42,099 nucleotides of DNA from the NCBI GenBank assembly GCA_937904325.1, contig CALGTK010000064.1, positions 1 through 42,099 on the forward strand. The letters are read 5' to 3'. This DNA comes from an uncultured Planctomyces sp. (GTDB lineage: Bacteria > Planctomycetota > Planctomycetia > Planctomycetales > Planctomycetaceae). Both the position numbers and the translations under genes were made by a program. How positions within the stretch are numbered: position 1 is the stretch's first letter; each line of letters starts with the position of its first letter. Under the pieces are notes generated by a model. That model saw only the letters and a program-made list of their open reading frames with translations. It was not told where the DNA came from and did no database searches. Of the stretch, positions 14,560 to 21,336 are shown one piece after another.

Positions 14560-15273
14560 ATGACTGCATTGTCATCTTCACTGTCTCAGACAGATATCGA
14601 ACGCGTTGTGCGCTCCGTGTTGCAGCAGCAACTCGGCCCGGCAGCGAACGTCAAACCGAATCCGCTGGTTGTAAATATCAGCGCTCGACACGTGCACCTT
14701 TCGCAGGAGCACGTTGAAGTTCTGTTCGGCAAGGGAGTTGAACTCGAAGTTCACAAATGGCTTTACCAGGACGGCTACTTCGCGGCGAAGCAAACGGTCG
14801 CTGTCGTCGGGCCTCGTCGACGCATGTTGCCGGAAGTTCGCATCCTCGGACCGGTTCGTCCGAGTCAGGTTGAGCTGGCGTTTACGGACGGCATCTCGCT
14901 GGGTATCGATCTGCCAGTCAGGATCAGCGGCGATCATCACGAGACACCCGGTTGCACGCTCATCGGGCCGGCCGGGGTTCTCGAACTTCAGTCGAGCGTC
15001 ATCCGAGCCATGCGTCATGTCCACATGGGACCGGCAGACCTCGAGTACTACGGTGTCAAAGACGGTGACGTCATGGATCTGCGCATCGAATCGGAAGGCT
15101 GCACGACCGTGCTTGAAGACCTGAAGATTCGAGCCGGAGACGACATCAAGCTGGAAGTACATCTCGACACGGATGAAGGCAACGCAACTCGCCTGGACAA
15201 AGCGACGAGCGTTGAGCTGATCAAGCAAGACTGCGGCTGTGGCTGCGGCGGAGCCGGCACTTGCGGAACGTAA
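14560..15273 (+). CDS. pduL: PduL-type phosphate acyltransferase of the microcompartment
   Basis: A 237-residue protein from the ATG at 14560, with GGAAAG before it; an in-frame start 15 codons upstream would overlap the regulator. PduL moves the acyl group from acyl-CoA to phosphate, recycling CoA inside the shell. The zinc ligands of the two PTAC halves are visible: His44 and His46 in ARHVHLS, His153 and His155 in MRHVHMG, and a further His201 in [12 protein letters not shown]. Residues 9-26 form an amphipathic helix that fits an N-terminal encapsulation peptide, followed by a Pro/Asn linker. The C-terminus carries an unusual tail with Cys225, 227, 229 and 235 among glycines, beyond the usual fold. 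Confidence 0.93.
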
Positions 15274-15373: not shown

Positions 15374-15667
15374 ATGGCTAAGGCTATGGAAGCCCTCGGC
15401 ATGATTGAGACCAAAGGTCTTGTCTGCATGATCGAGGCAGTTGATGCGATGCTGAAATCAGCCAACGTTCAAATCGTCGGCTGGGACAAAGTGGGTAGCG
15501 GTCTGGTGACGTCATTCGTCGTCGGTGATGTTGCTGCCGTCAAAGCTGCTGTCGATGCCGGTGCAAGTGCAGCGAGCAAGATCGGCGAAGTCGTCAGCGT
15601 GCAGGTCATTCCTCGTCCGCACGAAGAACTGGCAGCCGTCCTGCCAGTGGTCAAGGCGTCCAAATAG
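15374..15667 (+). CDS. BMC-H hexameric shell protein 1
   Basis: A 97-residue single BMC domain protein; this family forms the hexagonal facets of the shell. The opening [27 protein letters not shown] is the classic BMC start, and the pore loop reads KVGSG (about residues 37-41), as in PduA-type hexamers. [16 protein letters not shown] and VIPRPHEEL complete the fold. TGGAGA lies 6 nt before the ATG, a strong ribosome binding site that suits an abundant shell protein. It is 100 bp after pduL, the largest early gap in the operon. A small-aldehyde pore is a reasonable inference from the loop. Confidence 0.95.
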
Positions 15668-15744
15668 TTTGATCGTGAGCCGCTGATGGTCGACACGAAA
15701 TCAGAAACGCCCATCAACGACGCTTGCTATCAACAACTCACATT

Positions 15745-15760
15745 CAACTATCAAAACCAA
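15745..15760 (+). repeat. Leader repeat before the second BMC-H gene
   Basis: CAACTATCAAAACCAA, a near copy of the element at 15337-15353. It ends 15 nt before the second BMC-H ATG, with AGGA in between. Confidence 0.4.
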
Positions 15761-15775
15761 GTCAGGATTCTTCCC

Positions 15776-16045
15776 ATGAAGGGTGAAGCAATAGGTCTCA
15801 TCGAGACCAAAGGTCTGGTTGCCCAGATCGAAGCGGCCGACGCAATGCTGAAAGCAGCAAACGTCGTTCTCGTAAAGCAGATTCAGATCGGTGGCGCTTT
15901 TGTGACGACCATCGTGTCCGGTGACGTCGGTTCGGTTCGAGCAGCCGTTGACGCTGGAGCATCGGCAGCCACACAGGCCGGCGAACTCGTTTCAGCTCAC
16001 GTCATCGCACGTCCGGATGCCAGCACGCTGGCAGCGTTCATCTAA
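15776..16045 (+). CDS. BMC-H hexameric shell protein 2
   Basis: An 89-residue BMC-domain protein from the ATG at 15776. This start was chosen because [22 protein letters not shown] aligns with the canonical BMC start and AGGA lies upstream; a frame opening 30 codons earlier has no BMC homology. It is similar to shell protein 1 through most of the domain, but the pore loop is IQIGGAF rather than KVGSG, so the charge and size of the pore differ. [16 protein letters not shown] and HVIARPD are typical. The two BMC-H genes look like a tandem duplication that has diverged at the pore. Confidence 0.94.
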
Positions 16046-17682: not shown

Positions 17683-19113
<1,431 letters not shown>

Positions 19114-19421: not shown

Positions 19422-20090
19422 ATGATGACTCAACAGGTACTTATCGAGCAGATCGTGGCGGAGGTCATGAGGCGACTCATGCCGACTGCTTCTTCTGCGC
19501 CGGCGAGTTCCGAAACGAATAACGGACAATCGACGCAACTGTCAGACTCAGTCATCACAGCGGATGTGCTGACTGAGAAAGTGACTGGTCAGAAACACGT
19601 TGTTGTCGGAGAACGGGCGATCGTGACTCCGTCGGCACGAGACTGGATTCGGCATAACAAAGTTGCATTGATTCACGAAAAGACAGCGGCATCGACAGCA
19701 GCACCGGCTTCGGTCAAGGAGAAGTCTGACAATTTGGTGATCACTCACTCAACTGGTCAGACAATTGATCGCGTTCTGGAAGACGCGGGCCGACAGATAA
19801 ACGGCGGATGGAATCGAAAAAACGTCGAGTCGGCAGATGAGGCTGCAAAGAAAGTAATCGGTGAACTCAGACGCGAAAGCTCCCGAGTAATCGTGGTCCT
19901 GACTTCCGAACCGGAAGTTGCCGCGTGTCTGGCGAATCGAAATGAGCAGGTGAAGGCAGCAGTCGTTGGGGATACAGCAGCAGTTGCTCGAGTGAAGTCC
20001 GAGCTGGATGGCAATGTGTTTGTTGTCGATCCCGCGGGACGAAGCTTCTTCGAACTAAGAAACATATTGAGGAGAGTTCAGAACTCTTAG
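19422..20090 (+). CDS. Probable BMC cargo: encapsulation helix + TPSARDW motif + RpiB-like domain, function unknown
   Basis: A 222-residue protein from the ATG at 19422, with GGAA just before it; 19425 is an equal alternative. Three parts are visible. Residues 4-20 (QQVLIEQIVAEVMRRLM) form an amphipathic helix like BMC encapsulation peptides, followed by an Ala/Ser/Asn linker. Residues 45-86 (ITADVL ... VTPSARDWIRHNKVALI) carry a motif also seen at the N-terminus of EutT-type cobalamin adenosyltransferases (LTPSARELL). Residues 104-218 look like the RpiB/LacA sugar-phosphate isomerase fold, with VKAAVVGDTAAVARV and GNVFVVDPAGRSFFELRNIL. I do not see the usual RpiB catalytic cysteine block. 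A structural, isomerase or scaffolding role is speculative. Confidence 0.85.
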   Translation: MMTQQVLIEQIVAEVMRRLMPTASSAPASSETNNGQSTQLSDSVITADVLTEKVTGQKHVVVGERAIVTPSARDWIRHNKVALIHEKTAASTAAPASVKEKSDNLVITHSTGQTIDRVLEDAGRQINGGWNRKNVESADEAAKKVIGELRRESSRVIVVLTSEPEVAACLANRNEQVKAAVVGDTAAVARVKSELDGNVFVVDPAGRSFFELRNILRRVQNS

Positions 20091-20445: not shown

Positions 20446-21336
20446 ATGAGCAGCAACCAGTGGAACAGCGGCGTTAACGATCGAACCCTCAAAGAAGACA
20501 TCTGCGAGATTGGCCGACGCGTTTATAACAAAGGCTTTGCCGCTGCGAACGACGGCAACATCTCGATCCGAGTCGGTGAAGATGCCGTGCTTTGCTCGCC
20601 AACGATGATCTGCAAAGGCTTCATGAAGCCTGAAGATATTTGTGCCGTCGACATGAACGGCGACCAGATTGCCGGCAAGCGGAAACGCACCAGCGAAATT
20701 CTGCTTCACCTGGAAATCATGCGGAACCGACCGGACGTCAAGGCCTGCGTTCACTGTCACCCGCCTCACGCCACAGCCTTTGCTGTTGCCAACGAAGCCA
20801 TTCCACAGTGCATCCTGCCAGAAATCGAAGTCTTTATGGGCGAGATTCCCGTCGCCCCGTACGAAACACCAGGTGGTCAGAAATTTGCGGAAACGGTGAC
20901 ACCGTTTCTCAAGTCGTCGAACACGATTATCTTGAAGAACCACGGCACGATCAGCTTCGGCAAGACCGTTGAAGAAGCTTACTGGAAGACCGAAATTCTT
21001 GACGCCTACTGCCGCATTCTGCTGCTCGCCCAGCAGATGGGCACAGTCGATTACCTCAACGAGCAGAAGTCACGTGAGTTGCTCGATCTGAAGAAGAAAC
21101 TCGGCTTCGACGATCCTCGCTTCCACAACGAAGACTGTGACCTTTGTGGGAACAGCGCATTCCGCGACGGCTACAAAGAAGGCGAAGCGCCACAGAGTTG
21201 CGCTTTCGAGCCAGCTCCGTCGTACCCTGGATATTTGCAGACACCGGCCTATGCAGGTGGAACTGCTACGGGCGGCGACAATGAAGCCCTCGTGAAGATG
21301 ATCACCGAGCAGGTGATGGCTGCAATCGCCAGGTAA
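20446..21336 (+). CDS. Class II (L-fuculose-phosphate-type) aldolase, BMC signature enzyme
   Basis: A 296-residue zinc aldolase expected to cleave L-fuculose-1-phosphate or L-rhamnulose-1-phosphate to DHAP and L-lactaldehyde. The zinc site matches E. coli FucA in spacing: Glu84 (catalytic acid), His103 and His105 in CVHCHPPHA, and His166 in LKNHGTIS. The aldolase domain ends near residue 225. It is followed by a linker with Cys231, Cys234 (CDLC) and Cys252, then an amphipathic C-terminal helix at residues 279-296 (ALVKMITEQVMAAIAR) that fits an encapsulation peptide. A C-terminal peptide on the aldolase is known in the planctomycete BMC; the cysteine linker is notable. Known homologues in PV loci are called PvmN. 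Confidence 0.93.
   Translation: MSSNQWNSGVNDRTLKEDICEIGRRVYNKGFAAANDGNISIRVGEDAVLCSPTMICKGFMKPEDICAVDMNGDQIAGKRKRTSEILLHLEIMRNRPDVKACVHCHPPHATAFAVANEAIPQCILPEIEVFMGEIPVAPYETPGGQKFAETVTPFLKSSNTIILKNHGTISFGKTVEEAYWKTEILDAYCRILLLAQQMGTVDYLNEQKSRELLDLKKKLGFDDPRFHNEDCDLCGNSAFRDGYKEGEAPQSCAFEPAPSYPGYLQTPAYAGGTATGGDNEALVKMITEQVMAAIAR

Follow-up and report, generated by a model that had tools for sequence, protein, structure and literature searches.

The joining of enzyme core and shell in bacterial microcompartments has been ascribed to EutQ and PduM. EutQ of Salmonella binds the shell through residues 9-41 and the cargo through residues 62-99; without residues 9-41 it remains with the cargo, without residues 62-99 it remains with the shell, and in both mutants shell and cargo come apart (PMC12487888). 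EutQ is a dimer or larger (PMC12487888). PduM links shell and core, which are partly separated upon its loss (PMC9132943); an effect similar to that of PduM loss is seen when its N-terminal signal sequence is deleted (PMC12108088). In the pdu operons examined, pduM immediately precedes the vertex gene pduN. For the PVM locus type, which serves the breakdown of fucose and rhamnose via lactaldehyde (PMC4207490, PMC8857213), no gene named as PduM or EutQ was present in the operons examined.

The DNA analyzed in this study (the window, 42,099 nucleotides) contains a complete planctomycetal PVM-type microcompartment operon. It encodes a DeoR regulator, PduL, two hexameric shell proteins (BMC-H1, 15374-15667, BMC domain 3.9e-27; BMC-H2, 15686-16045, an ORF that its own profile finds at the same place in relatives), acetate kinase, the vertex protein BMC-P1 (17280-17591, EutN_CcmL match), an acylating aldehyde dehydrogenase (AldDH, 17683-19113, NCBIfam PRK15398 1.3e-180), BMC-P2 (19147-19401), the protein under study, BMC-P3 (20115-20396), the class II aldolase that is the signature enzyme of PVM loci (20446-21336, Aldolase_II 3e-49) and a lactate/malate dehydrogenase (LDH). 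All the features of the window located in this report lie on the + strand. The gene under study, which we refer to as the linker candidate, occupies positions 19422-20090, a frame open over 222 amino acids plus stop; a start at M2 (19425) fits its closest relatives better. A preliminary description had placed it between two vertex-protein genes, had likened its N-terminal helix to cargo-targeting peptides, its middle to the N-termini of EutT and its C-terminal part to the isomerase RpiB without an obvious catalytic cysteine, and had proposed a deoxy-sugar isomerase, a shell-core scaffold or a cofactor protein as its function. The position is confirmed by EutN_CcmL matches of the genes on both sides (3.2e-22 for BMC-P2 and 1.1e-17 for BMC-P3). 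The translation falls into three parts, i.e. an encapsulation-peptide helix, a module with the TPSARD motif and a degenerate RpiB-like domain, which are separated by variable linkers of residues 21-40 (19482-19541, dN/dS 0.50) and 88-103 (19683-19730, dN/dS 0.71). All parts are under purifying selection, which is weakest in the linkers; the dN/dS values are simple pairwise counts within a genus, and the pairs are not independent.

The helix (residues 3-20, 19428-19481, dN/dS 0.28) carries V12 and V15, each present in more than 90% of 57 orthologous sequences. A position-specific score derived from these orthologues was scanned over 2572 positions of 12 operon proteins, and it scored its own helix at 36.6 bits, followed by the N-termini of AldDH (23.3) and PduL (20.6), a ranking that bears out the likeness to cargo-targeting peptides. 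These top outside matches are the encapsulation peptides of AldDH (residues 9-21, 17707-17745), which is present in other loci and is the proposed docking partner, and of PduL (residues 27-39 of the listed ORF, 14593-14631). The C-terminal encapsulation peptide of the class II aldolase (21289-21327) gave a weaker score of 3.5, the fourth-best site outside the linker candidate, just below an internal stretch of LDH (4.3). The shuffled control consisted of one shuffle repeated, with about 2,700 independent positions, and the hydrophobic moment of the helix was not discriminating (34% of shuffles were as high). Applied to EutQ, the helix profile found its best site at residues 85-97, within the published cargo-binding region. 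In the PduMs of E. coli and Klebsiella the best site was the N-terminal helix; another site scored higher in two other PduMs.

The TPSARD module (residues 41-87, 47 residues, 19542-19682, dN/dS 0.24), in which T46, T69, P70 and D74 are invariant among the 57 sequences, aligns with the C-terminus of TIGR02536, the C-terminus of PduM and the N-terminus of EutQ. The foreseen likeness to EutT was recovered at residues 4-45 of that protein (hhalign E 2e-5); that EutQ, PduM and TIGR02536 have the module too had escaped the preliminary description. When the 57 orthologues were scanned against 18,950 NCBIfam families, those most often matched were TIGR02536 (38 orthologues, best 1.6e-7), PduM (12 and 8), RpiB (9) and EutQ (6). 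The match to the EutQ N-terminal region (57% and E 1e-4 in hhalign, best NCBIfam value 6.7e-4) is one of sequence, and a PDB search with the module returned no relative having a solved structure. Of a set of 11,339 ORFs, no unrelated one ranked as high as EutT (7e-4), EutQ or the four PduMs (0.07-0.4) against a module profile made from planctomycete sequences only, with EutQ, EutT and PduM excluded. Single E-values are modest, and it is the rank together with the agreement of independent libraries that argues for a common module. We found no paper connecting EutQ, EutT, PduM and TIGR02536 through it in the literature accessible to us, and PduM is unmentioned in the 2025 EutQ paper (PMC12487888). 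A cofactor role of the EutT type was rejected, as the likeness to EutT is confined to its N-terminal module, which occurs on several unrelated enzymes, and does not include the EutT catalytic domain.

The same module heads ACT-domain proteins encoded near microcompartment genes (L166 5920-6525, L172 5118-5786, L175 4019-4660 and L176 4771-5748), as well as short cysteine-rich proteins beside such genes (L176 5340-5732 and L175 4558-5361).

The relationship of the third domain (residues 104-218, 19731-20075) to RpiB is supported by several sequence comparisons, so the preliminary description was right on this point as well. Pfam LacAB_rpiB (PF02502) was matched by 30 of the 57 orthologues (best 6.5e-6), the window protein alone reaching 14.1 bits, under the cut-off of 24.7; hhalign of the domain to the RpiB family gave 90.6% and E 1.3e-6; and the best PDB matches of the family profile were nearly all RpiB or LacB (E 0.01-0.4). 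In the 8-Mb genome the housekeeping rpiB was the second-best match to the domain profile (2e-4). AlphaFold2, with three sequences in the alignment, gave models of too low confidence to be useful (pLDDT 44.7 for the full-length protein, 41.8 for the domain).

Homology is not accompanied by the catalytic Cys, Asp, His and Arg residues of RpiB, essentially all of which are replaced or deleted. Across 14 sequences compared, this applies to the equivalents of D9, H10, D43, Y44, C65, G66, G68, G70, H98, N99, R132 and R136, apart from a single exception at each of D43 and G66, whereas the housekeeping RpiB keeps all these positions. The numbering follows a reference row of E. coli RpiB, used for numbering only; it agrees with the 2vvr alignment except at H98 (N in that chain). 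The PVM protein retains N76 and N102, Arg replaces K77, and the C-terminal arm with two arginines is missing. With all RpiB catalytic residues lost, the protein is unlikely to act as an isomerase in the manner of RpiB. The domain is nonetheless the most constrained part of the protein (dN/dS 0.13) and must therefore serve some specific purpose.

Within the domain lies the motif ACLANR (19923-19940), in which C169 and R173 show no variation among 57 sequences in spite of the lost RpiB chemistry; N172 is nearly invariant, and residues 165-182 have a dN/dS of 0.06. The reported lack of an obvious catalytic cysteine therefore holds for the RpiB catalytic position, but not for the domain as a whole, as the invariant C169 is found eight residues further on.

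Relatives of the linker candidate are widespread, not confined to one genome, and the third domain is related to RpiB by sequence; neither of the two results that would have spoken against the preliminary description was thus obtained. A single-protein search found it in 141 of the 150 genomes of the family, always with PVM microcompartment genes; of the nine others, six have no BMC-P genes and in three the contig ends before the expected place. The order BMC-P2, linker candidate, BMC-P3 is kept in nearly all loci examined. At the class level the family profile matched 148 of 198 genomes (some 13 of these matches being limited to the region to which housekeeping RpiB fits as well), BMC-P genes being present in 158 genomes, and no full-length match was seen in any of the 198 without BMC-P genes. 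A plasmid search with the protein gave no match.

In one genus (g29; genomes G028 and G070) the PVM operon is scattered, with BMC-P1, AldDH with BMC-P2, BMC-P3 and the linker candidate lying apart (loci L057, L077, L086, L088, L093, L094, L096 and L098), and the vertex proteins, AldDH and the linker candidate are still retained.

Natural losses of the gene were found at the class level. In nine PVM operons, from four families of the class, BMC-P2 and BMC-P3 are adjacent with no linker candidate between them; the rest of the operon is retained, as are the encapsulation peptides on AldDH, PduL and aldolase (L182 covers neither the PduL end nor the DeoR end, and no LDH was recognized in L181). 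On the AldDH tree the absence of the gene needs seven changes, at least five of them forced by well-supported branches; operons that are intact in other respects have thus dropped the gene on five or more occasions, a pattern that speaks against the role of an essential or obligatory pathway enzyme. Truncated forms occur as well: one species (L215) has the helix and module only, the RpiB-like part alone, without helix or module, is present in L190, L206 and L209-L211, and other lineages are without the helix. The parts are therefore separable, and the survival of the RpiB-like part by itself shows that it has a separate function in some lineages. Other families of the class include some in which C169 has been lost (L187, L192; family f77).

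The PVM operons of family f77 have an extra BMC-H2 copy, with or without the linker candidate (L177, L179, L180, L184, L185 and L197-L204). The idea that extra BMC-H copies compensate for loss of the gene was rejected, as f77 loci with and without it both have them.

Fourteen proteins of other planctomycete classes (L157-L169, L173 and L174, L166 excepted) share the order of helix, module and RpiB, most of them encoded beside BMC-P genes. In the four that were scanned, the RpiB domain scores far above the family cut-offs, and the fourteen keep D9, H10, D43, H98, N99, R132 and R136. One adjoins a DeoC aldolase, an arrangement of RpiB and DeoC that has been described for SPU loci (PMC4207490, PMC8217296). 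Since the three-part architecture is found in these loci together with an RpiB domain that is intact apart from its catalytic Cys, the window protein looks like a degenerate descendant of a protein of this type. In the domain tree the PVM group lies near these microcompartment RpiBs, descent from them not being settled (AU p 0.43 and 0.12).

In all 14 microcompartment RpiBs the catalytic Cys is replaced by Asp in an otherwise intact active site, an unusual variant tied to the organelle.

The described proteins resemble the linker candidate in different respects. EutQ shares with it a TPSARD-type N-terminal module and, on the model proposed below, a separate cargo-binding helix region, a dimeric enzyme-like body and the union of two functions in one chain. 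However, its order is module, helix, cupin instead of helix, module, RpiB-like domain, and its C-terminal cupin acetate-kinase domain is reported to be active, whereas the C-terminal domain of the linker candidate has lost the RpiB residues and gave no cupin match in Pfam or NCBIfam. PduM has an N-terminal signal helix, a TPSARD-type module, a gene located before a vertex-protein gene and a published role in linking shell and core, and the linker candidate has the same architecture of signal helix and module encoded beside a vertex-protein gene. In PduM, by contrast, the module is C-terminal, the middle region was unrelated in searches and there is no RpiB-like domain; whole-protein scores against PduM (TIGR04493, PF15953) stayed below the family level (best E 0.0023; 16.4 bits in one example against a cut-off of 50), with the match confined to the module region in the members examined. 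The ethanolamine utilization protein TIGR02536 has the module at its C-terminus, but the match is limited to the final ~45 of its 207 positions and the whole-protein score is far under the family cut-off. With RpiB/LacAB the linker candidate shares a homologous C-terminal domain (ANK/R, RAA and NV signatures), from which it differs in having no catalytic residues, a shortened C-terminus and extra N-terminal targeting parts. The microcompartment RpiBs of other planctomycete loci are identical in the order of the parts, and most are encoded between or beside vertex-protein genes; they differ in keeping the RpiB active-site residues (apart from the Cys to Asp change) and the C-terminal GGRHxxR arm.

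We propose, with a probability of roughly 0.64, that the protein serves as a linker in the assembly of the PVM microcompartment, with the RpiB-like domain as its body. The N-terminal helix would join the enzyme core through the type of encapsulation peptide common to AldDH, PduL and aldolase, and the module, like the homologous part of EutQ, would attach to the inner side of the shell. The RpiB-like domain would be a retired isomerase kept as a folded, probably dimeric, body or spacer, so that one molecule could bridge core and shell. RpiB enzymes are dimers or larger, as is EutQ, which makes such a bivalent bridge plausible. The ancestor may have been a microcompartment-encapsulated RpiB already carrying the helix and module, whose catalysis would have decayed as the isomerase step was unneeded on a sugar 1-phosphate pathway. 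For the uncultured Planctomyces sp. we infer shell binding, core binding and dimerization from these comparisons. Among the functions named in the preliminary description, the shell-core scaffold is thus favored, because the module and helix correspond to the regions through which EutQ was shown to bind shell and cargo, and also to the way in which PduM is built. The occurrence of three-part proteins of apparently ancestral form beside vertex genes in other classes, the purifying selection on every part and the retention of the gene in the scattered-operon genus also count for a linker. Counted against it are the weakness of the individual module matches to EutQ and PduM (the E-values of 0.07-0.4), the unsettled descent in the domain tree, the strong constraint on the RpiB-like domain and the lineages with the RpiB-like part only, which a pure linker model does not predict. 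Moreover, the PVM organelle can presumably assemble without the protein, because at least nine sampled operons have no gene for it.

The invariance of C169 and R173 and the very strong constraint around them, together with the persistence of the RpiB-like domain alone in some lineages, would also suit a cargo protein with a new ligand-binding or catalytic site formed around C169, R173 and N172 (for lactaldehyde, lactyl-phosphate or a sugar phosphate), in which the helix and module serve for packaging only. We consider this unlikely, given that no RpiB catalytic residue and no C-terminal arginine arm are left, that several otherwise complete operons do without the gene and that C169 itself is lost in other families. 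Slightly less probable still is an accessory protein which tunes organelle size, pore traffic or vertex closure via the flanking vertex proteins without bridging core and shell; the recurrent place beside or between vertex genes across classes and the dispensability in some lineages agree with it, but gene neighborhood alone is no proof of contact, and the homologous EutQ module is reported to contact EutM and EutL (PMC12487888). The homology of the domain would speak for an active isomerase of the deoxy-sugar or ribose type with the mechanism of RpiB, yet this is highly improbable, being already contradicted by the catalytic positions replaced or deleted in 14 sequences and kept in the housekeeping RpiB, which is encoded elsewhere in the genome; the absence of the gene from several otherwise complete operons likewise disfavors the deoxy-sugar isomerase.

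A broader proposal, which we put at a little under even odds, is that the TPSARD module is a general shell anchor of otherwise unrelated microcompartment proteins (EutQ, EutT, PduM, TIGR02536, microcompartment RpiB and ACT-domain proteins), and that the PVM protein exemplifies an enzyme of the organelle interior which lost catalysis and then became specialized as a linker.

To conclude, the assembly linker proposed here is, in the sources accessible to us, the first named candidate for tying the enzymes to the shell in the planctomycete organelle for fucose and rhamnose breakdown. On this evidence, one small module may be common to linkers of different organelles and would allow linkers to be recognized in uncharacterized loci. 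The linker candidate seems to derive from a sugar-phosphate isomerase that was targeted to the organelle and then lost its active site, and it would offer a case of the evolution of an enzyme into a structural part in which ancestral-looking, degenerate, truncated and lost states are all available.
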